Translations under genes and position numbers: made by a program | Assembly: GCA_902779615.1 (NCBI GenBank) | Contig: CACZCM010000011.1 | Coordinates: forward strand, 25,710 to 59,595 | From: an uncultured Ruminococcus sp. | GTDB taxonomy: Bacteria > Bacillota > Clostridia > Oscillospirales > Acutalibacteraceae | Length of the DNA: 33,886 nucleotides | Direction of reading: 5' to 3' | The notes under the pieces: generated by a model | What the model saw: only the letters and a program-made list of their open reading frames with translations | What the model was told of the DNA's origin: nothing | Databases searched by the model: none | Shown here: positions 232 to 30,879 of the stretch, in pieces | Layout: every line of letters begins with the position of its first letter | How positions within the stretch are numbered: the first letter of the stretch is position 1

Positions 232-1035
232 ATGTCAAAGAAAAACAAGCGGCAAAAAGTCAACCGCAGCTATGACGGGATCGACCGAGAAGAAAGCACG
301 GCAGGTCTGATGGCGCTGCGGGTTTTTGTTGTGATAGTCATTATAGTGTTTATCGCAGGTACGGCAATGCTTTTTGCGTATAATTTCAGCAAGGAAGCGG
401 AAAACGTGACAGTACGCCCCGCTGACATACAAACCGACACTGACGGAGTATATTATCAGATATACGACAGGGACGTATCGGCGGAGCTGCTTCAGTACTA
501 CAGCAAATATTACCCCGCAGCAGAGAATGTCGAACCAAAGCTGACCGAGGCCGAGGGCGTTCGGGTGAATGAGCTGATGGGCGAAAGTCTGAGGAGAATG
601 TGTGAAGCTGCGGCGCATGACGGTATTCGCATTGAGCCGATTCGAGGCTACATGACGCACGAGGAATGTGAGGGGTATTTCAAGTCGCTTGCGCTGCAAT
701 TTGAGGACGAGGGTGACAGTACTCCCGTTGCGCAGAACAAGGCTGCTGATATTTTTCCTCCTGCAAAGGAGAATGAGTACCGCACGGGAATGCTGATAAA
801 GATCTCCGACGAAAGCAGCGATGAATTTGAGATCGGACGTGTATATAAATGGATGTATAAAAATGGCGTAAACTACGGTTTTATCAACCGATATACCGAG
901 GAAAAAGAACCGCTGACGGGTATTTCTGCCGATCTCACCGTATACCGTTTTGTAGGAACGGAAAACGCAAGAAAAATGCGGGAATTCGGAATGTGTCTTG
1001 AGGAATACTCCCAGTATGCGGCAAGCCGCAGCTAA
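232..1035 (+). CDS. membrane-anchored VanY-like (M15) protein, zinc ligands lost
   Basis: A 267-residue protein with a basic N-terminus, one membrane segment (about residues 28-50) and an extracellular part resembling the VanY D-alanyl-D-alanine carboxypeptidase fold (about 110-260). The fold is recognised from YGFINRYTEEKEPLTGI and YRFVG, which match the family pattern of a GFI-R segment followed by a RYVG strand. The family metal motif SxHxxGxAxD reads NEYRTGMLIK here (181-190), so His and Asp are Tyr and Lys. The later ExxH reads DLTV. I infer a pseudoenzyme that may bind peptidoglycan or a partner but not hydrolyse it. Start: the ATG at 232 lies 9 nt after GGAGG (218-222). ATGs at 226 (3 nt from it) and in-frame codons further upstream are less likely. 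The gene stands alone on the plus strand. Confidence 0.72.
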   Translation: MSKKNKRQKVNRSYDGIDREESTAGLMALRVFVVIVIIVFIAGTAMLFAYNFSKEAENVTVRPADIQTDTDGVYYQIYDRDVSAELLQYYSKYYPAAENVEPKLTEAEGVRVNELMGESLRRMCEAAAHDGIRIEPIRGYMTHEECEGYFKSLALQFEDEGDSTPVAQNKAADIFPPAKENEYRTGMLIKISDESSDEFEIGRVYKWMYKNGVNYGFINRYTEEKEPLTGISADLTVYRFVGTENARKMREFGMCLEEYSQYAASRS

Positions 1036-8649: not shown

Positions 8650-9754
8650 CTGTTTCTACCTCCGTGCCGTTAATCTTCATCAGCTTTTTATACCTTACGC
8701 TGCCGCAGGTCTTCTGCGTCCTGACGCTCATTCCCTGCGCTGTCAGCTGTGATACGGTCTTAGACAGCACATCGAGGCTAGAATCATCGTCATAGATCAG
8801 CAGCACGTCTGCGTCGTACTCCTCATCATCTCTCATCAGGCGCGACAGCTGATCGAGATACACAGCAAATCCCACAGCGCCCGAACGCTTGCCGAATTTT
8901 TTCATGAGGTTGTCGTATCTGCCGCCCGACAGAATGCTGTTCGGAACGCCGTCAATAAACCCGTGGAAGATCACGCCGTTATAGTAATCGAGGTCGCTGA
9001 CGATCGAGAAATCCAGATTCACGCCGTTTTCGCACCCGCAGCCCTCCAGAAACGAATAGACGTTTTCAAGCTCGCTGACCGCCCTGCGGCAGTCGTCATT
9101 AACGGCGATCTCTTTCAGTTCCACGATACATTTTTTAAACGTTCCGTATATGCCGGTAAGCTTCACCAAAGCATTTTTAGCGTTCTCGCTGACGCCGTAA
9201 CGTGTACAGCGTTCCTCCATCTCGGCGGTATTTTTGGATCGAATACAATCTATAAGCTTATCGATTTTTCTGCGGCTCAAATTTTCTCCGTCAAATATTC
9301 CTCTTAAAAAGCCCATATGTGACATATCGAGGATATTGCGTTCGCACACGGCGTCAAGACTCTTTTTGGCAAGGAGAATCACCTCACTTACACTGTAATC
9401 ATCAATGTCGCCTATAAACTCAAGTCCGATCTGCATGATTTCTTTAAAGCGGTGAGTACCCTTATCGATACGGTAAACATTCTCACTGTAATATACCTTC
9501 TCGGGTTCGGTGAAGGTATCGTTTGAATTTTTCACGATAGACAAGGTAACGTCGGGCTTCAAAGCCATCAATTTACCGTTTGTATCGGTAAAAGTGATAA
9601 CGCTGCTGCCCAGCAAAAAGTCCTTATTTTGGGAGTACAGATCATACTCCTCGAACTTACTCATTTTAAAATGCTTATAGCCGTACTGCCTGTACATACG
9701 GCTCAGCTCCATTACCGCCGCTTCTTCATTGGCAAAACCGATAACGCTGCTCAT
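8633..9754 (-). CDS. hisZ: ATP phosphoribosyltransferase regulatory subunit
   Basis: Histidyl-tRNA synthetase-like protein (373 aa) without tRNA charging role. In the hetero-octameric enzyme it activates short HisG and carries the histidine feedback site. Class II core segments are visible: ALKPDVTLSIVK (motif 2 region), RFKEIMQIGLEFIG and, near residue 250, a YYNGVIFHGFI segment followed by SGGRYDNLMKKFG. First gene of the operon, 62 nt downstream of the predicted transcription start. It is not a true HisRS because of length and the adjacent short hisG. Confidence 0.93.
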   Translation of the reverse strand: MSSVIGFANEEAAVMELSRMYRQYGYKHFKMSKFEEYDLYSQNKDFLLGSSVITFTDTNGKLMALKPDVTLSIVKNSNDTFTEPEKVYYSENVYRIDKGTHRFKEIMQIGLEFIGDIDDYSVSEVILLAKKSLDAVCERNILDMSHMGFLRGIFDGENLSRRKIDKLIDCIRSKNTAEMEERCTRYGVSENAKNALVKLTGIYGTFKKCIVELKEIAVNDDCRRAVSELENVYSFLEGCGCENGVNLDFSIVSDLDYYNGVIFHGFIDGVPNSILSGGRYDNLMKKFGKRSGAVGFAVYLDQLSRLMRDDEEYDADVLLIYDDDSSLDVLSKTVSQLTAQGMSVRTQKTCGSVRYKKLMKINGTEVETVENNA

Positions 9755-12663: not shown

Positions 12664-14604
12664 ATGTTAAAAAAAGCTGCCTGTATAGCGATCGCTGCGG
12701 CAATGCTTGCGGGAATGGCGTGTGCGCCGATCAAAGCTTCCGCTGCCAAAACAAATACCGCCGAAAATGGCTTTTTACCGGAGCAAAGCGGGTCTGACTC
12801 CGAATCCGTTCTTCGAGGCGACATAAATCATGATGGGACGCTTACTTCCTCGGACGCGCTGACCATTCTCTGTGCGTCTGTTGGTTTAATACGCCTTGAA
12901 CGAGAATACGAAGCAGATATTGACGGCGACGGAGAAGTGACGTCCGCCGATGCGCTGGAAGTATTGCGCGCAAGCGTTTATCTTAACGATCTTATTCCGC
13001 GAGAAAGCGATCCCTTGACGCCTCAAGGCAGTGACAGCGGAGAGATCAGGTACAAAGCAGGAGATACCGTTACCGTTTCTGTTCAGTTCGGCAATATCAC
13101 CGAGGGTTCAGTCGGCGCATTTAACTACAATGTTTATTACGATCCCGAATATCTTGAGCCTGTGACAGATGAACGCGGCAGAATTCAAATCGAAGATCTG
13201 ATGGTTGAGGACTATTCTAGCCCTTACCTCGCTTGCAATGATTCATATCCCGGATCGGTTTATTTGGCTATGTCTGCGGTGGAGGGCATTGATAATGATA
13301 CATCGGGAGCTCCTGCCGATCTTGTGAAAATCAACTTTAAAGTATTGAAGGACGCTTCGGAACTCGGCATTGAAGGAAAGTGTGCGTCACTGTCGACTGT
13401 AATCATAAGTAATCACAATTATAATGCAAAGGACATCATTGGCCCGGATATCGTATCGGAGGATCTGTATACAAATTTGGCAGTACCGGAGTATACCTAC
13501 GAACCTGAACCCGTTTCCGAACCTGAACCCGCTCACAGTGAACCGGCTGTATACGACCCGCCGGAGTACACCTACGAAGGGTATACGTATAAATATGTAA
13601 ATAATTACAGTGTTGGCGAAATAAAGATAATACGATACACCGGTGATGCTTCGGAAATAACCATTCCTTCGGAGATAAACGGCAGCACCGTTACATATAT
13701 CGACGATAATGCTTTTTCGGACTGCACAAGCATAAAGAGCATAACGATCCCCGACTCCGTGACAAATATTTCGCTTTCTGCTTTCTCAGGCTGCACATCG
13801 CTGACAAGCATTACTGCCGGAATGGGCATCGCAGGAAACTATGGTCATAGCTACAGAACTTCGGTTCGTTCAATTCATTATGGGAACGTGTTTGCCGTGT
13901 GTGATAATCTGAAAACAGTTATCCTTCCGGAAAAGCTAACTGCTATTGCAGATGATACGTTTATGGATTGTAAGAGCTTGACCGAGATCTCTATCCCCGA
14001 AGCCGTGACTCACATAGGCACATCGGCATTTGAGGGCTGTACAAACCTTACCAAAGTGACCATTTCAAAATGGGTAGTACATATCGGAGCCGACGCTTTC
14101 AGCGGCTGCCCAAATTTAAAAATCTACGGCAGTGAAGGATCGTATGCGCAGATATATGCAAAAACATACAATATACCTTTTGTCGCTTTGGACGACCCCC
14201 AGACTCCCGCCCCGTCTTCCAAAGATCAAAAGCCTATACTTGAACCTACTCCCGAACCTACTCCCGAACCTACTCCCGAACCTACTCCCGAACCGGCTCC
14301 CGAACCGGCTCCCGAACCGGCTCCCGAGCCTACTCCCGAGCCTGCTCCCGATCAAACATCAGACTCGACGCCAAAGCCATCAGCCCCTGCATTCTACGGC
14401 GATATGGACGGTGACGGGACTATCACCTCGGGTGACGCTCTGAACATCCTGCGTGCAAGCGTTCAGCTGAACGATCTCACTCCCGAACAGTTCAAGCTTG
14501 CTGATATAGATAATGACGGTACGCTAACTTCGAGCGACGCGCTCTCCGTTCTGCGCGCAAGCGTCGGTCTTGGCGGCGGGAGCATAGTCGGCAAGCAGGC
14601 ATAA
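12664..14604 (+). CDS. secreted protein: dockerin-like, cohesin-like, BspA-type LRR, Pro-Glu linker, dockerin-like
   Basis: A 646-residue exported protein of unknown function. Residues 1-28 are a signal peptide (cleavage near ASAA). Residues 51-111 hold two calcium-loop/helix repeats (GDINHDGTLTSSDAL and ADIDGDGEVTSADALEVL), a dockerin-like pair. Residues 127-272 resemble a cohesin or related beta-sandwich (AGDTVTVSVQFGN, GAFNYNVYYDPEYLEPV). An acidic Pro-rich linker (275-300) follows, then BspA-like leucine-rich repeats (about 305-505; ITIPDSVTNISLSAFSGC). A Pro-Glu repeat linker covers 527-561. A second dockerin-like pair (577-635) ends the protein. The N- and C-terminal dockerin-like pairs share the SSDAL...LRASV pattern. 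Dockerins bind cohesins in cellulosome-type assemblies; an adaptor or adhesin role is my inference. GGAGG lies 8 nt before the ATG. Monocistronic, closed by its own hairpin. Confidence 0.8.
   Translation: MLKKAACIAIAAAMLAGMACAPIKASAAKTNTAENGFLPEQSGSDSESVLRGDINHDGTLTSSDALTILCASVGLIRLEREYEADIDGDGEVTSADALEVLRASVYLNDLIPRESDPLTPQGSDSGEIRYKAGDTVTVSVQFGNITEGSVGAFNYNVYYDPEYLEPVTDERGRIQIEDLMVEDYSSPYLACNDSYPGSVYLAMSAVEGIDNDTSGAPADLVKINFKVLKDASELGIEGKCASLSTVIISNHNYNAKDIIGPDIVSEDLYTNLAVPEYTYEPEPVSEPEPAHSEPAVYDPPEYTYEGYTYKYVNNYSVGEIKIIRYTGDASEITIPSEINGSTVTYIDDNAFSDCTSIKSITIPDSVTNISLSAFSGCTSLTSITAGMGIAGNYGHSYRTSVRSIHYGNVFAVCDNLKTVILPEKLTAIADDTFMDCKSLTEISIPEAVTHIGTSAFEGCTNLTKVTISKWVVHIGADAFSGCPNLKIYGSEGSYAQIYAKTYNIPFVALDDPQTPAPSSKDQKPILEPTPEPTPEPTPEPTPEPAPEPAPEPAPEPTPEPAPDQTSDSTPKPSAPAFYGDMDGDGTITSGDALNILRASVQLNDLTPEQFKLADIDNDGTLTSSDALSVLRASVGLGGGSIVGKQA
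14242..14350 (+). repeat. 12-bp coding tandem repeat (Pro-Glu linker)
   Basis: About nine copies of a 12-bp unit, GAACCTACTCCC and near variants (GAACCGGCTCCC), encode repeating E-P-T-P or E-P-A-P. The first four units are identical and variants are grouped rather than mixed, as expected from slippage or unequal exchange. Copy number is likely to vary between strains. Confidence 0.9.
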
Positions 14605-25293: not shown

Positions 25294-25875
25294 TTAACAC
25301 GAACAGACATCACCGTCAAGCACCCGCCTTGCGGCGTCCGCTTTTTTCAGTCCGTTGTCCATCGCTAATTTTTCAATGTACCTGTGTGACTGCTCCTCGC
25401 TCATGCCGTCCCGTTCAATAAGAACGCTCTTCGCTTCATTCACTAATTTCAGTTCCAAAAGCTTCTGCTCCAGTCTTTTGGCGTTTTGCTCAAGCTGCCT
25501 GATCTTCTCGTCAGATGCGGCGATCACCTTCAGGCTTTGATACAGCATCGCCTTCGTTACCGCCTTTGACAGTGTAAGCACTCCGAACGGCTCCAGCTTG
25601 TATACAGCCTTTTCGTACATATCGGGCTTTACAAGCACCATAACTCCGCAGCTTTTGGAACAGTCCTGCGCAAGCTTCGCTCCGAATTCGTCCGCCAGCG
25701 GAATGTTTATCACAATAATGTTTATCGGAGTTTTTCGAAGTGTTCGTCTTGCTTCGGCGGCATTCCCGACTGTATGCACGGGATAAAATTCGCTCTGCGG
25801 CATTGCGCCTTTGATGAACTCCTCTGCCCGCTGATCCTTCGAAACGATCAGCACGCTTTTCTGCCCCCACAGCAT
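25294..25875 (-). CDS. ANTAR-domain RNA-binding regulator with degenerate receiver
   Basis: A 193-residue protein: receiver-like domain (1-115), a charged coiled coil (about 120-145) and a C-terminal ANTAR domain (about 145-188). ANTAR proteins bind paired RNA hairpins and block termination. The receiver looks inactive: the phospho-acceptor position reads VIN57IP instead of an Asp, and the acidic pair is IVSKD. In Clostridium saccharobutylicum a comparable gene (glnR) follows glnA and precedes the glutamate synthase genes, so nitrogen control through the glnA leader is a reasonable inference. GGAGGTGA precedes the ATG by 4-7 nt and directly follows a copy of the structured repeat. Confidence 0.85.
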   Translation of the reverse strand: MLWGQKSVLIVSKDQRAEEFIKGAMPQSEFYPVHTVGNAAEARRTLRKTPINIIVINIPLADEFGAKLAQDCSKSCGVMVLVKPDMYEKAVYKLEPFGVLTLSKAVTKAMLYQSLKVIAASDEKIRQLEQNAKRLEQKLLELKLVNEAKSVLIERDGMSEEQSHRYIEKLAMDNGLKKADAARRVLDGDVCSC

Positions 25876-25887
25876 AGACTCACCTCC

Positions 25888-25940
25888 TTAAAAGCTCTGT
25901 TTTCAACACGCGCGCACAACCCATAGGCTTGTGCGGTTAT
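25888..25940 (-). ncRNA. structured repeat element, deleted copy (R4)
   Basis: On the minus strand it starts ATAACCGCA and ends CAGAGCTTTTAAG, the end sequences of the full copies at 30602-30879, but lacks the middle. It retains a CAAGCCTAYG segment. A stem of GCACAA with TTGTGC remains. Its 3' end abuts the GGAGG of the ANTAR gene. Confidence 0.55.
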
Positions 25941-25967
25941 TTTTCTACGCTCAGACCGCTTTCGCTG

Positions 25968-27164
25968 TTATCTCAAAAAACCAAGCGGCAGATATTTCTT
26001 CACAAAGTCGCTGCTCATCGCCTTGGCTCTGGCTTCTGCATAACTGCCGGGCAGGCGTTCGAGCGTTTTTGCAAATTCCTCGTCTATTGTATATAGATTT
26101 TTGTCGATCGAATCCGGCGGCTGCTTATCGTTCTCGATCCCCTCAAGCGCCGCATATATCAGCAATCCATACGCTACATAAGGGTTGATCGTCGGATCGG
26201 GCGACCTGAGTTCCATTCGCTTCAGCTCACCCTTCGCCGCAGGTATCCTGACAAGCTGCGAACGGTTCTGGTGCGACCATGTAATGTACTTCGGCGCTTT
26301 GTCCTCTCCAAGCCGTTCATACGACTCGTCACACGGATTCAAAACTGCGGTGATCTCCGCAATTCTGTCGAGTATTCCCGCAAGCATTTGTTTTGAATAG
26401 TCTTTTCCGTCCTCCGACTTGACCGAAATATTTATATGCAGTCCGCTGCCGCTTTTTCCCTTTATCGGCTTCGGTGAAAAATCCGCATACAAACCGTTCA
26501 TATCACAAACCGAACCCACCACCGACTTAAACGTAACAGCGTTATCTGCCGATGCGATCGGGTCGCTGTATTTGAAGTCGATCTCGTTCTGACCGGGTCC
26601 CATTTCATGATGAGATGTTTCGGGCATTATATTCATATTCATAAGTGTGAAGCAGATCTCCCTGCGGATATCCTCGCCTTTGTCCTGCGGCGCAATGTCC
26701 ATATAGCCTGCGTTGTCGAACGGGATCTTTGTAGGCTGACCGACCTCATCACATTTAAACAGATAAAACTCAAACTCTGCGCCGAAATTAAAAGCGATCC
26801 CCTTCTCTCGTGCGCACTTCACTGCATTTTCCAAATATTTACGGCTGTCAAGCTCGAAAGGCGTCCCGTCCGGCTTCACGATATTGCAAAACATACGCAC
26901 AACTCTGCCCTCGGAAGGACGCCAAGGCAGTATCTCGATAGTTTCGGGGATAGGCTTTAAGAAAAGATCGGAGCTGACCTCATCTCCAAAGCCTTTGATA
27001 CTTGACGCATCAAAAGCGATCCCGTCCTCAAATGCTCTTTTCATTTCGGAGGGCATAATTGAAATATTTTTTTGTTTTCCTGCAATATCAACAAAAGCGA
27101 GCCTAATAAATCCAACGTCTTCATCTTTGTTGAATTTCATGATCTCATCATATGACCTATACAT
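25968..27164 (-). CDS. glnA: glutamine synthetase, type I, short form
   Basis: Makes glutamine from glutamate, ammonia and ATP. Type I signatures are present: VGFIRLAFVDIAGK (N-terminal), the metal and glutamate sites GAEFEFYLF, HHEMGPGQNE and GLHINIS, the ATP-site NRSQLVRIP and the C-terminal RSPDPTINPY. At 398 aa it is shorter than the usual 440-470 of GSI; the loss appears spread over loops in the C-terminal half. NLYTIDEE aligns with the E. coli adenylylation-site region (NLYDLPPEE), but no adenylyltransferase gene is seen here. The ATG has AAAGGAG 9 nt upstream and a leader of about 300 nt. First gene of the nitrogen cluster. Confidence 0.95.
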   Translation of the reverse strand: MYRSYDEIMKFNKDEDVGFIRLAFVDIAGKQKNISIMPSEMKRAFEDGIAFDASSIKGFGDEVSSDLFLKPIPETIEILPWRPSEGRVVRMFCNIVKPDGTPFELDSRKYLENAVKCAREKGIAFNFGAEFEFYLFKCDEVGQPTKIPFDNAGYMDIAPQDKGEDIRREICFTLMNMNIMPETSHHEMGPGQNEIDFKYSDPIASADNAVTFKSVVGSVCDMNGLYADFSPKPIKGKSGSGLHINISVKSEDGKDYSKQMLAGILDRIAEITAVLNPCDESYERLGEDKAPKYITWSHQNRSQLVRIPAAKGELKRMELRSPDPTINPYVAYGLLIYAALEGIENDKQPPDSIDKNLYTIDEEFAKTLERLPGSYAEARAKAMSSDFVKKYLPLGFLR

Positions 27165-27470
27165 TTTTTGCTGCTCCTTTCCGGTGCTTCATATACGCTG
27201 CCGCTCTGACAAACAGCCATTGATTCTATCCTCACAGAACCGTACATTTTTCCGTATTTGTTCGAATTTCTTCAAGATGCAAACAGCATTAAGCCGGCAT
27301 CTTTTTACATATTTGTCAAGTATTTGCGATTATTTATCATTTTTATATGCAATGTTAATAACACTAATTAATTATTATTTTTGTTAGTATGCTGTTTTTA
27401 AATTAAAATAGCGTTCACCGAAAAGAGGGTATACCCCTCAGTTCAATGAACGCCCTTGCTCATTTCTCAA
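27165..27470 (-). promoter_or_regulatory. long glnA 5' leader with attenuator-like hairpins
   Basis: Read on the minus strand from the predicted start near 27471. A GAGGG-CCCTC hairpin (27425-27439) is followed by four Us and is enclosed by a longer GCGTTCA/TGAACGC stem (27411-27453). Downstream are AAGATGC/GCATCTT (27274-27303) and a GGTTCT/AGAATC stem near 27224-27243. The first is terminator-like. I could not identify the paired hexaloop ANTAR motif with confidence. Confidence 0.5.
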
Positions 27471-27477
27471 TGTATAT

Positions 27478-27506
27478 ATTTTATAGAATTACGACCGATT
27501 TGTCAA
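27478..27506 (-). promoter_or_regulatory. sigma-A promoter of glnA
   Basis: Consensus TTGACA (27506-27501) and TAAAAT (27483-27478) on the minus strand with a 17-nt spacer. The next best candidate, a TTGACA near 27320, lacks a -10 box. This placement implies a leader of about 300 nt. Confidence 0.8.
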
Positions 27507-27647
27507 GATATCATTTGCTGAAATAGCGACGTTAAGACGACTGTTTTTTGTCATATTAGCTATATTTCAAATTCTCATTTTGCAGGATTTGATTTTTGAT
27601 TATTCATTTTTGTCGTTTGAGGCAGTATTTAAGCCTCAAGATCCCCT

Positions 27648-27681
27648 AAAAAAAGCACACAGCCGTATCTCGACCGTGTGC
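27648..27681 (-). terminator. intrinsic terminator of rluB
   Basis: On the minus strand GCACAC (27681-27676 read as complement) pairs with GTGTGC (27660-27655) and is followed by seven Ts (27654-27648), about 14 nt after the rluB stop. A second stem, TTGAGGC/GCCTCAA (27617-27639), follows. The stretch 27540-27617 is A/T-rich and holds nothing I recognise. Confidence 0.9.
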
Positions 27682-27694
27682 GGTTATGCAAAAA

Positions 27695-28450
27695 TTATTT
27701 GTAATTCTCGGTGATGACAGTGGTGTTTGGCTGAGCCGTCAGTCGGCGCACCTCATCTCGTGTAAGCTCTCTCCACTTCCCCTGAGGAAGCATTCCCAAC
27801 TTGACCTGTCCTATCATCGTCCTTTTCAGCCTTGCGACTTCAAGACCCAGCTTTGCGCACATCTTGCGTATCTGACGATTTCTGCCTTCACGCAAAATGA
27901 TCTCAAGCACCACTCTTCCCTCGTCGCGTTTGATAACATGAACCTCGCAGGGCTTGGTTCGTCTGCCGTCGATCACAATACCATCGCACATCTGCTGCAC
28001 CTGTTCCTTTGTGATATCCGGGCGTACCGTAACTCTGTAGACCTTCGCTACGTGCTCCGACGGGTGCGTTACCTTGTTGGCAAAATCGCCGTCGTTCGTC
28101 ATCAGCAGCAAACCCTCGCTTTCACGATCCAGTCTGCCCACAGGGTAAACTCTCGCGGGAACGTCCCGAACAAGTTCCGCTACACAGTGCCGCCCTTTTT
28201 CATCGTCCATAGTTGTGACAAAGCCCCTCGGCTTATGCAGCATTATGTAGTAGTACTTATTTTTTGCCGCAGCGCTTACGCGTCTGCCCTTGACCGTGAT
28301 CTTATCTTTTTTGGGATCGACCTTGTCGCCAAGCTGCGCAGTTTTACCGTTGACCTTCACGCTGCCCTGAACGATCAGCTCCTCCGCTTTTCGTCTTGAA
28401 GCAACGCCGCACTGCGCAAGTACCTTCTGAAGCCTGATTTTATCTTCCAC
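27695..28450 (-). CDS. rluB: RsuA/RluB-family rRNA pseudouridine synthase
   Basis: Isomerises a uridine in rRNA. The 251-residue protein has an N-terminal S4 RNA-binding domain (RLQKVLAQCGVASRRKAEELI, about 6-55) and the catalytic domain with D108 in VGRLDRESEGLLL, the RsuA/RluB/RluE/RluF signature. GRNRQIRKM and the final RRL-rich tail fit RluB. Firmicutes usually carry rluB downstream of the scpAB region as here; the exact target base is not provable from sequence. It ends the cluster at a strong terminator. Confidence 0.9.
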   Translation of the reverse strand: MEDKIRLQKVLAQCGVASRRKAEELIVQGSVKVNGKTAQLGDKVDPKKDKITVKGRRVSAAAKNKYYYIMLHKPRGFVTTMDDEKGRHCVAELVRDVPARVYPVGRLDRESEGLLLMTNDGDFANKVTHPSEHVAKVYRVTVRPDITKEQVQQMCDGIVIDGRRTKPCEVHVIKRDEGRVVLEIILREGRNRQIRKMCAKLGLEVARLKRTMIGQVKLGMLPQGKWRELTRDEVRRLTAQPNTTVITENYK

Positions 28451-28501
28451 TTTTCTTTCCTCCGAAGCATTTTCAGATCAAATACGCCATACGTCCCAAG
28501 G

Positions 28502-28560
28502 GTCATAAAGCCATTATGACAGACCAATGCGCCAAGCTGCCGGCTTGTGGCTCAGCAGCC
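28502..28560 (-). other. three consecutive small hairpins between dacF and rluB
   Basis: In the 112-nt gap lie GTCATAA-AGCCA-TTATGAC (28502-28520), CAAGC/GCTTG (28533-28547) and GGCT-CAGC-AGCC (28549-28560). None has a U-tract in the gene direction, so they are not ordinary terminators. They may be a processing or mRNA-stability element. Confidence 0.45.
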
Positions 28561-28562
28561 GA

Positions 28563-29705
28563 TCATCTGAAAAAGCTGATTATATTTTCAATAAAAGATG
28601 TTTCACGTTCCGACAATTCGACATCGGAAGCCGCTGAAATATCTGTCTTTCCTGCGTATACGCCGCCTGTATAATATTTCAGTACACCGATCTGCTGACC
28701 GTTTTTCACAGGCGCATATAAAAACGGCGGTATCTCATACTTTACCTGGACGTCCCCGGAGCCTTGACACACAAGCGGCGGCTCGCCCACATTTGCCGTT
28801 ACACTCTCGCTTTCACCGCCGACAACGCTTATTTCGACAGCCGCACTCCCGGCATTTGCCTGTGACATATTCATTTTATCGAATCCGTAATCAAAAAGCT
28901 CTGCATGATCGTTCCAGTCGTTCGGATCGTTGAGCGTCACGCAAATAAGCCTTACGCCGTCCTTTTCGGCGCAGGACACGAGAGTTCTCCCCGCCTTATC
29001 GGTGTAACCCGTTTTTCCTCCGACACAATATTCATATCGGCTGAGAAGTTTGTTTTCATTGTAATATGTCTGCGATTTACCCTGAGGTTCAACGAAATCG
29101 ACCGTCACACTGCTGCCGGATACGATCTGCCTGAACGCATCGTTTTCCATACAGTGCGCCATCAGTCGGGCAAGATCGAACGCAGTGGTAAAGTGACCGT
29201 CTGCGTCAAGACCGGAAGGCGTCACAAAATGAGTATCAAAAAGCCCCAGGCTGCCCGCCTTCTCGTTCATCATGTCGGCAAAGCCCTCGCTGTTTCCGCC
29301 GAGCGTTTTTGCGATAGCGTTGGCGGCATCGTTGCCGGAAACCATCATCATTCCTCCGACCAGATCGCTAAGCCGCACGATCTCTCCGCTGTTCAGATAC
29401 ATTGACGAGCCTTCGGCGTACATATCCTCGGTGATCTCGATCTGCATATCATCAGCCGCCTGTATCGCTTCAATTCCCAATATCGCAGTCATGATCTTTG
29501 TCGTGCTTGCAGGCGGAAGGCGGACATTCTCGTTTTTTGCGGCCACCACCTGCGCGTTATTGGCGCAGTAAAGGCAATAGGCATATGCGCTCGCTGCGTT
29601 CTCCTCGTTCTCATCTGAATTTACCGCAAGAGTCAATGCAGCAGCCAAAACGCACCCCGCCGCAGCGCCTGCAATTATTTTCAGAAACACTCTTGTCTTA
29701 CTCAT
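28563..29705 (-). CDS. dacF: D-alanyl-D-alanine carboxypeptidase (S11, DacF type)
   Basis: Exported penicillin-binding protein that trims the terminal D-Ala of peptidoglycan. Signal sequence at 1-27, then the catalytic motifs S67-x-x-K70 (PASTTKIMTA), S123-G-N and K231-T-G (VGGKTGYTDKAGR). The C-terminal domain is a PBP5-associated beta domain and ends in an amphipathic ETSFIENIISFFR that may tether it to the membrane. Length is 380 aa. The start is the ATG at 29705, 8 nt after AAAGGAG. Frames further upstream run through the structured repeat and are rejected. In firmicutes dacF/dacB genes near spore genes often act in spore cortex or sporulation; that is inference here. Confidence 0.93.
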   Translation of the reverse strand: MSKTRVFLKIIAGAAAGCVLAAALTLAVNSDENEENAASAYAYCLYCANNAQVVAAKNENVRLPPASTTKIMTAILGIEAIQAADDMQIEITEDMYAEGSSMYLNSGEIVRLSDLVGGMMMVSGNDAANAIAKTLGGNSEGFADMMNEKAGSLGLFDTHFVTPSGLDADGHFTTAFDLARLMAHCMENDAFRQIVSGSSVTVDFVEPQGKSQTYYNENKLLSRYEYCVGGKTGYTDKAGRTLVSCAEKDGVRLICVTLNDPNDWNDHAELFDYGFDKMNMSQANAGSAAVEISVVGGESESVTANVGEPPLVCQGSGDVQVKYEIPPFLYAPVKNGQQIGVLKYYTGGVYAGKTDISAASDVELSERETSFIENIISFFR

Positions 29706-29728
29706 TGTGACCGCTCCTTTGAATCCAT

Positions 29729-29980
29729 ATATAACCGCACAGGGAATTCCCCCCGCCTTTAAGGCGAGTTCCATTCTGCGTTCAGCAAGAGTTATAGTCA
29801 ACGACATTAAAAATACCCCTTTTACTGATTCTTGACTGATTGCGGGGGTCTTTCCGGTCGCCCCCTGCACCCCTTCGGAATACTCTCTAAGAAAAATTAT
29901 CTATGTCGCTTACTATAAATACACTGCCGAACGAACAAACCTGCGGCTTGTTTCTGCTTGTAGAAAGCAGAGCTTTTTAA
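29729..29980 (+). ncRNA. structured repeat element with long insert (R3)
   Basis: On the plus strand, opposite to dacF, it starts ATATAACCGCA and ends CAGAGCTTTTTAA like the copies at 30602-30879. It keeps the CGCCTTTAAGGCG hairpin, a CGTTC/GAACG stem (29779-29783 with 29929-29933) and the final hairpin CTGCTT-GTAGA-AAGCAG. About 138 nt are inserted in the loop of the second stem, including a GGGGG/CCCCC hairpin near 29840. No coding frame is supported in the insert. Confidence 0.6.
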
Positions 29981-30012
29981 CAATATATGAATACGGGCGG
30001 CGGTTCATGCTA

Positions 30013-30084
30013 AATAACAAGCAGGATATGTGAATACTGTTTAACGATCGTTATTATTCAGACTCAAAATTCCCGCTTGTTTAT
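30013..30084. repeat. concentric nested inverted repeats
   Basis: Three inverted repeats share nearly one centre: AACAAGC/GCTTGTT (30016-30022, 30075-30081), TGAATA/TATTCA (30031-30036, 30055-30060) and AACGATCGTT (30043-30052). Together they can fold into a 70-nt cruciform or hairpin just downstream of gerW. It may end the gerW transcript, though the U-tract is poor. Confidence 0.55.
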
Positions 30085-30115
30085 CGATCTCCCCCTGATT
30101 CAAGGCACTATTATT

Positions 30116-30586
30116 TCAGAATACCTCGCCGTCAATATCGGCTGCTTCCTCGTCCTTATCCAAAGTCGGCTTCCTGCGGGTCGGCTTAGCCTCGGGGATC
30201 TCGTCGTCCTTTTTCTTTGCCTTGGTCTTCTTAAAAAGTTCGCCGACTTTATCCGTAATATCGGGGATCATGGATATAACTCTGTCCACTGCGCCGTCAA
30301 ATTCCATATTAAGCATTTTTACATTGCCATTATTCACAACCAGAAACGCCACCGGCTGGATCGAAACGCCTGCGCCGCTGCCGCCCGCAAAATTATCCTT
30401 TGAGTTGCCGTTTTTATTCGGCAGATCGGAGCCGCCCGACGCAAATCCATAGCTCACCTTCGACACGGGGATTATGACCGTGCCGTCCGGACATATGACC
30501 GGTTCGCCGATGATGGTATTAACGTCCACCATCTGGCGAATTTTCTCCATAGTAGTATCCATCATATTTTCAAGATGATTTGCCAT
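30116..30586 (-). CDS. gerW: GerW-family sporulation protein (YtfJ)
   Basis: A 156-residue protein of the YtfJ/GerW family, needed in Bacillus for normal spore germination. The conserved core is visible: MMDTTMEKIRQMVDVNTIIG, VIIPVSKVSYGFASGGSD, a Gly-Ala-rich GGSGAGVSIQPVAFLV and a charged, Lys-rich tail. The start is the ATG at 30586, with GTGAGGTTGA about 10 nt upstream; a GTG at 30601 lies in that site and is rejected. It follows DUF2953, the same neighbour (ytfI) as in Bacillus, but two copies of the structured repeat separate them. Confidence 0.92.
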   Translation of the reverse strand: MANHLENMMDTTMEKIRQMVDVNTIIGEPVICPDGTVIIPVSKVSYGFASGGSDLPNKNGNSKDNFAGGSGAGVSIQPVAFLVVNNGNVKMLNMEFDGAVDRVISMIPDITDKVGELFKKTKAKKKDDEIPEAKPTRRKPTLDKDEEAADIDGEVF

Positions 30587-30601
30587 TATTATCAACCTCA
30601 C

Positions 30602-30732
30602 TTAAAAGCTCTGCTTTCAACAAGCAAAGACATGCCTTCAGCGTGTACGTTCGGCAGGAATCTATACCCTGCTTAACGTAAGATGGACCCGCCGTCTGTA
30701 TGAGGCGGATGACATCTCCTCTGCTGTTATAT
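30602..30732 (-). ncRNA. structured repeat element, full copy (R1)
   Basis: A 131-nt minus-strand element. Stems: CCGCC/GGCGG in the first hairpin; ACGTT/AACGT with inner GCAGG/CCTGC (30647-30679); and a final CTTTGCTT/AAGCAGAG hairpin. The final hairpin contains a U-G wobble on the minus strand that would be an A-C mismatch on the plus strand, so the RNA is probably minus-strand. The 3' end runs straight into GTGAGG, the gerW ribosome binding site. Confidence 0.65.
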
Positions 30733-30750
30733 TCGGAATGCAATATATTC

Positions 30751-30879
30751 TTAAAAGCTCTGCTTTCTACAAGCAGAGATAAGTCGTAGGCTTGCACGTT
30801 CAGTAGGGGATCTTAACCCCTGAACGTTAGGTGAAACCCGCCGCCTTAAAGGCGTGGGACATCTCCTCTGCGGTTATAT
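30751..30879 (-). ncRNA. structured repeat element, full copy (R2)
   Basis: A 129-nt direct neighbour of R1, separated by 18 nt. Stems: CGCCTTTAAGGCG; ACGTTCA/TGAACGT enclosing GGGG/CCCC (30796-30827); CTCTGCTT-TCTAC-AAGCAGAG (30758-30778). The inner second stem differs in sequence from R1 but pairs equally well. It starts about 31 nt after the DUF2953 stop. Family guess: HEARO/IscB omega-RNA or IS200/IS605 end; not verified. Confidence 0.65.

Follow-up and report, generated by a model that had tools for sequence, protein, structure and literature searches.

What gave rise to the four similar sequences that lie in the spacers between genes on a single contig of an uncultured Ruminococcus sp. 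(Acutalibacteraceae; GenBank assembly GCA_902779615.1)? The stretch analysed here, referred to as the window, comprises 33,886 nucleotides (nt), positions 25,710 to 59,595 of contig CACZCM010000011.1, and a sequence-only reading of it had described the four sequences, R1 to R4, as a family of structured, RNA-like intergenic elements. Direct reading and a repeat search recovered all four essentially at the places first assigned to them. The comparisons reported below make it probable that R1 to R4 represent an IS200/IS605-like mobile element that is non-autonomous and has a strand with a conserved fold, acting as either RNA or single-stranded DNA. The copies, with the parts of R2 that serve as reference, are as follows (positions within the window; P1 to P5 denote helices).

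30751–30878, minus strand: R2, full copy including the left TATAA (30874–30878); the element proper covers 30751–30873
30866–30871, minus strand: 5' strand of P1 in R2, GCAGAG, which pairs with CTCTGC at 30773–30778
30751–30778, minus strand: right end of R2, consisting of the P5 hairpin (CTCTGCTT..AAAGCAGAG) followed by CTTTTAA
30602–30731, minus strand: R1, full copy with TATAA at 30727–30731
29730–29980, plus strand: R3, in the opposite orientation, with TATAA at 29730–29734 and about 120 extra bases in the P3 arm
25888–25941, minus strand: R4, a short form with AATAA as its left end, followed by P4 and P5 only

Copy number, ends and insertion site

The genome that contains the window (hereafter the home genome; 2.8 Mb in 281 contigs, 99.4% complete but fragmented) carries many further copies of what is a dispersed family. 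R2 alone, used as a blastn query, yields 46 matches across this genome, and a covariance model built from 35 aligned home-genome copies (the family A model) yields at least 85, since all 85 candidates scored, out of 941 obtained at first look, were matched. With at most one mismatch allowed, patterns of the two ends detect 159 left and 156 right ends, compared with 13 and 1, respectively, for the reversed-pattern controls, which places the family far above chance. Within the window, the model scores R1 at 110 bits and R2 at 125 bits, both copies having been used to build it; R3 is matched as two pieces of 45 and 28 bits, and R4 receives a weak score (18.8 bits, E 0.013).

The standard unit is about 130 nt long and extends from the C just after the TATAA target to a terminal TTTTAA. 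Partial copies are common in the home genome and include short forms of 45–97 nt, in which both ends are kept and the interior is deleted, as well as copies reduced to the right end; long forms of about 180–220 nt carry extra hairpins in the P2 arm. A young subfamily is 95–96% identical, compared with a mean of 76% over the 35 aligned copies, and three contigs terminate in the same 98 identical bases of the element. The spread of identities, the partial forms and the shared contig ends are signs, read from the assembly, that the element has moved repeatedly, including recently.

The insertion site was examined in three related genomes (UBA7217, UBA3329 and one CANARN assembly), which are 86–96% identical in the stretches compared and contain 6, 4 and 7 copies, respectively. 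The flanks of seven copies were joined without the element and sought in these genomes, and five sites could be compared. At three clean sites (L279, L282 and L288), represented by five empty alleles, TATAA directly adjoins the right flank in the empty sequence, and in the filled one the element stands between the two; the right edge drifts within a base or so, and there is no target duplication longer than two bases. As for the other sites, the homologues of L291 were too diverged to judge, L289 (C-type) gave no continuous match and L293 matched only itself. Thus, family E, one of the related families described below, inserts directly 3' of TATAA without target duplication beyond a possible AA, and the same would hold for family A, to which the window copies belong. 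The boundary of R2 given above likewise combines the family E empty sites with the home-genome copies.

The ends of the home-genome copies agree with this placement. Conservation stops abruptly at TATAA on the left and at TTTTAA on the right (76 copies anchored on the left and 80 on the right, out of 86); among the 76 left-anchored copies, ATAA is conserved at 96–98% and the preceding T at 85%, figures to be read with the anchor favouring ATAA. In 8 of the 52 copies with an upstream neighbour on the same strand, the TAA of TATAA is the exact stop codon of that neighbour, as expected of a target that existed before the insertion. Inspection of the ends revealed no terminal inverted repeat, and folding of representatives places a subterminal hairpin at each side: P2 on the left, close to the end, and P5 or a different hairpin on the right. 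Some orthologous copies are common to the species of the three related genomes.

Two kinds of accessory sequence accompany the copies. Family A copies can have small hairpin modules (e.g. CGTCGGGGACGG / GGYTCCCARCCG) within the P2 arm, and long home-genome copies with such modules are found at L070:274–454, L086:262–479 and L085:257–456. The modules recur in a different genome, within copies of family B (L155 and L170), and some of those in the home genome are located outside any recognized full element; the modules appear to have been shuffled from loop to loop. At L115, L118, L126 and L134 of the home genome, partial copies are interrupted by, or lie against, a further dispersed repeat, which contains CAAGCCTTTTTCAAAAGGCTTG in either orientation. 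L136 and L142, also in the home genome, are stand-alone right-end palindromes (AAAAGCTCTGCTTTCAACAAGCAGAGCTTTTAA type) that may serve as bidirectional terminators of element origin.

A folded strand maintained between families

Relatives of the element were sought in a contig collection with the exact P2 core pattern, which matched 43 loci from 14 other assemblies, named Clostridia, Oscillospiraceae, Ruminococcus, Mogibacterium or Firmicutes. These loci sort into family A and families B to G, one of them (L177) showing little beyond the left end and P2; an eighth family, H, comes from a phage contig. Families A to G have in common ATAAC at the left (mostly TATAAC), the P2 core, the P3 arm and a right-end hairpin followed by sequence ending in AA, and are divergent elsewhere; because the search pattern selects for an identical P2 core, the conservation of that core is not itself evidence. 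Seven of the eight families, all except F, can form a four-way junction.

The helices were named by hand from the sequences and then counted. For the count between families we used an alignment of 31 chosen sequences from families A to E and G, setting aside the three family F loci, most home-genome copies, and any copy that was truncated at an end or carried an insert; P3 of family B and P4 of families A, C and D are out of register in this alignment, which lowers the counts. All seven inner pairs of P1 change on both sides; the number of cells with a double change is 122, compared with 43 ± 7 in shuffled alignments (reached in none of 500), and the paired share falls from 86% to 42–51% when the strands are slid against each other as a control. 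In P3, 7 of the 12 pairs likewise change on both sides; P2 displays no covariation. When the two strands of P1 were exchanged between variants of families A to E, G and H (E represented twice, the two E variants not being crossed with each other), the 5' strand paired best with its own 3' strand in seven of eight variants, the exception being family A, whose P1 is weak. The alignment shows wholesale replacement of P1 between families with the pairing kept, and compensatory change in P1 and P3.

Unconstrained folding of the P1–P4 segments of families B, C, D, E and G returns the junction itself, with z-scores of −4.9 to −10.6. In a full family A copy the arms form and P5 replaces P1 (z-score of −7.4); the CTCTGC used by P1 of R2 also sits in the 5' strand of P5, so that in family A only one of these two helices can form at a time. 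The stability of the reverse strands is about equal to that of the modelled strand.

Comparison of copies within the home genome, by contrast, gives a mixed picture, and the strong covariation signal comes from the comparison between families. Among the 35 aligned copies, there are 39 cells with a double change, compared with 22.9 in shuffles (none of 500), and the covariation score is 0.180 versus 0.156 (none of 500). The number of pairs with a double change is 13, against 10.9 ± 2.2 (reached in 115 of 500), further pair types do no better than in shuffles (283 of 500), and RNAalifold recovers the P5 hairpin only. Broken pairs are found in many home-genome copies, as expected for decaying copies.

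The sequence-only reading had pointed to two details of R1 and R2, both of which are borne out: the letters of the second stem differ between the two copies with pairing kept in each, and the T–G wobble in the last hairpin of R1 pairs only when the minus strand is read. Over five helices, the modelled strand has 111 G–T against 71 A–C oppositions (p 0.004, the cells not being independent). From such details that reading had concluded that selection acts on RNA structure. A structured strand is upheld by our analysis; the choice of RNA is not, since both RNA and single-stranded DNA allow G–T/G–U wobble on one strand and the wobble counts do not separate them.

Mode of movement and competing explanations

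According to PMC7290912 and PMC4227781, members of the IS200/IS605 family read a target of four or five nucleotides by base pairing and insert 3' of it, creating no duplication and having no terminal repeats. Insertion 3' of TATAA without a long duplication follows the same mode, and movement in trans by a single-strand transposase of the Y1 (HUH) type is therefore the most likely mechanism, so that the IS200/IS605-type origin suggested by the sequence-only reading gains support from the insertion mode, although not from the gene content of the home genome (see below). One strand can fold into the four-way junction of P1 to P4 plus the terminal hairpin, and P1 can draw on the target's AA together with the element's first C, which pair with a GTT close to the right end. 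In the mechanism we propose, such a fold would bring the left and right cleavage sites together in a single-stranded intermediate, and the GTT strand would help to read the target. A bolder version, which we put forward tentatively and consider doubtful, is that of a parasitic superfamily defined by its fold, in which P1 belongs in part to the target (the AA of TATAA) and in part to the element, and the 3' strand of P1 serves as the target-reading guide in a four-way-junction synaptic complex, as either folded single-stranded DNA or a guide-like RNA of another enzyme.

Several observations weigh against an IS200/IS605-like element with a conserved fold. Neither a Y1 transposase nor TnpB was matched in the home genome, and a Y1 match exceeds the cut-off in only 5 of the 14 other host genomes (7 of 14 at E 0.001); Y1 may be supplied from outside the assembly. 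The analysis revealed no autonomous element with the same ends, and in 25 Y1/TnpB loci no shared ends were recognized, the superfamily model (P1–P4) giving, besides the separate copy described below, two weak matches at TnpB loci (L271, 18.7 bits; L278, 13.2 bits). The clean empty sites are of family E throughout, at L292 the homologous empty sequence lacks TATAA, and an AA duplication remains compatible with the empty sites, because element and target both end in AA. As regards the fold, the three loci of family F have neither P1 nor P4, the outer AAC/GTT pairs are nearly invariant and do not covary in the alignment of 31 sequences, further pair types in that alignment show no excess over shuffles (410 of 500), and when the right end is included, unconstrained folding gives the junction in families C, D and E but not in A, B and G.

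HEARO, or IscB omega-RNA, is a structured RNA linked to IS200/IS605-type elements, and the sequence-only reading had considered the repeats as stand-alone representatives of it. Read in this way, the repeats would be mobile guide-RNA scaffolds of TnpB or IscB, TATAA being the left motif and the guide being supplied by the right flank. In favour of this, the element keeps the left motif and has a sharply defined, structured right end, as in the TnpB/IS605 layout, and the strand is highly structured and conserved. We nevertheless judge this explanation unlikely. The HEARO covariance model (RF02033) has no match in the window or elsewhere in the home genome, in which no search for iscB (RRXRR/HNH families) was made, and no Rfam family reaches its gathering score in the window or in 19 related loci; relaxed Rfam searches of three short stretches produced one, one and three matches, all far below that score. 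TnpB, lacking a match in the home genome, is over the cut-off in 4 of the 14 other hosts. When the superfamily model was run against 16 Y1 and 9 TnpB host loci, the single strong match proved to be a separate nearby copy beyond the IS605 element, on the other strand, and at none of the nine TnpB loci was the element seen as the right end of the locus itself, the weak matches at L271 and L278 aside. Spread by some other route that leaves no duplication or one of two bases, such as a rolling-circle Y2 transposase, a site-specific recombinase or a reverse transcriptase, would accommodate the possible AA duplication, and no enzyme was identified for the element; moreover, Y1 transposition is not the only kind that leaves no long target duplication. 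However, insertion 3' of a fixed AT-rich pentanucleotide together with subterminal hairpins is the IS200/IS605 pattern, and we regard such a route as the least probable of the explanations weighed here. A miniature inverted-repeat transposable element of the DDE type was rejected, given the lack of a terminal inverted repeat on inspection and of a target duplication longer than two bases.

The placement of the copies bears on a further explanation, a cis-regulatory leader RNA (riboswitch or attenuator), the prior appeal of which lies in the mutually exclusive P1 and P5 of family A and in a right end that resembles a terminator. With gene calls from a simple longest-open-reading-frame scheme, 60 of 86 home-genome copies overlap no gene call. 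Of these, 56 are flanked by a neighbouring gene on each side: 29 lie sense and 9 antisense in tandem pairs (p 0.0017), 10 are convergent and 8 divergent, so that a sense bias coexists with common antisense and convergent placements. Among the 17 copies of family E, 11 were tested for neighbours after orthologous duplicates and damaged copies had been left out; 10 of these have a same-strand gene downstream, 8 of them at 62–102 nt before it, and a strong promoter-like site ends 3–9 nt upstream of the element in 6 of 12 copies. The stretches upstream of family E are AT-rich, however, and a promoter-like score of 11 or more is reached in 7 of 12 on the forward and in 5 of 12 on the reverse strand, and the home genome shows no clear promoter enrichment (14 of 84 upstream versus 8 of 84 on the reverse strand). 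Given that TATAA resembles a −10 box, a preference in insertion may explain the promoter-like sites. The downstream genes have no function in common: of 20 proteins from families A to G, the 19 with a Pfam match belong to unrelated families (including fucosidase, GDPD, FGGY kinase, YchF, sulfatase, GlgB and PNPase), which makes a riboswitch for a shared ligand unlikely. In four orthologous pairs the element is 95–99% identical, compared with 84–92% for the stretch 45–345 bases downstream, but three of these pairs show equal conservation of the element and of the 45 bases ahead of it, leaving only hints of a retained role for the orthologous copies. With the element also absent from empty sites in sister genomes, a leader RNA appears unlikely, slightly less probable than the omega-RNA scaffold and slightly more probable than spread by another route, and we retain the IS200/IS605-like element as the preferred explanation.

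Neighbourhood, relatives and comparison with known systems

R1 and R2, both on the minus strand, are flanked by a DUF2953 gene and a YtfJ-like gene (30116–30583, minus strand); if the latter starts at the ATG at 30583, the right end of R1 abuts its ribosome-binding region. R3 begins 25 bases from a divergent D-alanyl-D-alanine carboxypeptidase gene, provided that this gene starts at the ATG ending at 29705. In the stretch 25294–27164 (minus strand), R4 occupies the spacer that separates a glutamine synthetase gene from the start of the ANTAR-domain gene directly downstream of it. Elsewhere in the window, 12664–14604 on the plus strand encodes a protein with BspA-type leucine-rich repeats and matches to cohesin and dockerin, suggesting a cellulosome-type surface protein.

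The distribution of family A is patchy. Its model matches 8 of 39 other genomes, all 8 being among the 21 genomes of the same genus, and has no match in the 18 genomes outside the genus. At the ytfJ locus it detects R1 to R3 in the home genome only: there is no match at 20 other ytfJ loci from the genus, one of which (L229) starts too near the contig end to show the spacer, and the ytfJ-locus spacers of the 18 relatives inspected are without the element. The superfamily model adds one weak match (23 bits), elsewhere in the ytfJ-locus stretch L228.

Family H was found by one right-end pattern on the phage contig L326 (IMGVR_UViG_3300037400_003070), which encodes tail sheath, baseplate, tape-measure and endolysin proteins. 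It is represented there by two similar copies, of which one is flanked by tail genes and the other follows the endolysin gene:

9221–9336, minus strand: family H copy
859–974, minus strand: second family H copy, without the GTT partner of AAC

Both are co-directional with the genes, and phages may carry the element between hosts. Three P2-core patterns had no match in viral contigs, and no blastn match to a family A or family C sequence was obtained in collections of plasmid and phage records. The element is named in no title or abstract opening of the open-licence literature surveyed, and a term search of PMC12558985 returned no match.

Among known systems, the closest in kind are the palindrome-associated transposable elements (PATEs), described in section 3.8 of PMC7290912 as short, gene-less and movable in trans. 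These and other derivatives that consist of IS200/IS605 ends only share with the element its shortness and lack of genes and, as we infer for the element, mobility in trans; the IS200/IS605 family at large, as presented in PMC7290912, shares the absence of terminal repeats and insertion 3' of a pentanucleotide. PATEs keep recognizable IS ends, whereas for the element no matching IS or Y1 gene was found; it differs from them also in having about 150 ends and a four-way junction that spans the element and is kept by covariation across families. Group A IStrons, combinations of IS200/IS605 with a group I intron, resemble the element in inserting downstream of a T-rich pentanucleotide without duplication and in their conserved fold (PMC4227781). 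The element, however, is about 130 nt long, has no genes, targets TATAA rather than TTGAT, ATTAT or TTTAT, and lacks a group I intron match at the Rfam gathering score in the window and in the 19 related loci, and an IStron was rejected. Repetitive extragenic palindromes (REPs) and bacterial interspersed mosaic elements, with their REP-associated tyrosine transposases, are similar in their high copy number, extragenic location and hairpins, and in their link to Y1-type enzymes (PMC2817692). According to PMC3733652, REPs are palindromes of 20–40 bp, most of them in groups tagged by GTAG or CGTC, in contrast to the larger units with a multi-helix junction described here. With no match in the families searched, we file the element as PATE-like, outside any named family.

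A single bacterial genome thus harbours about 150 ends of one element that matches no family searched. Copies situated at stop codons or next to ribosome-binding sites may influence gene expression and genome plasticity, and the recurrence of the fold in other clostridial assemblies and between phage tail genes offers a route of spread. Should the helix that spans the fold indeed read the target, the element would recognize its insertion site with the same helix that closes its fold, which would represent a new arrangement of single-strand transposition.

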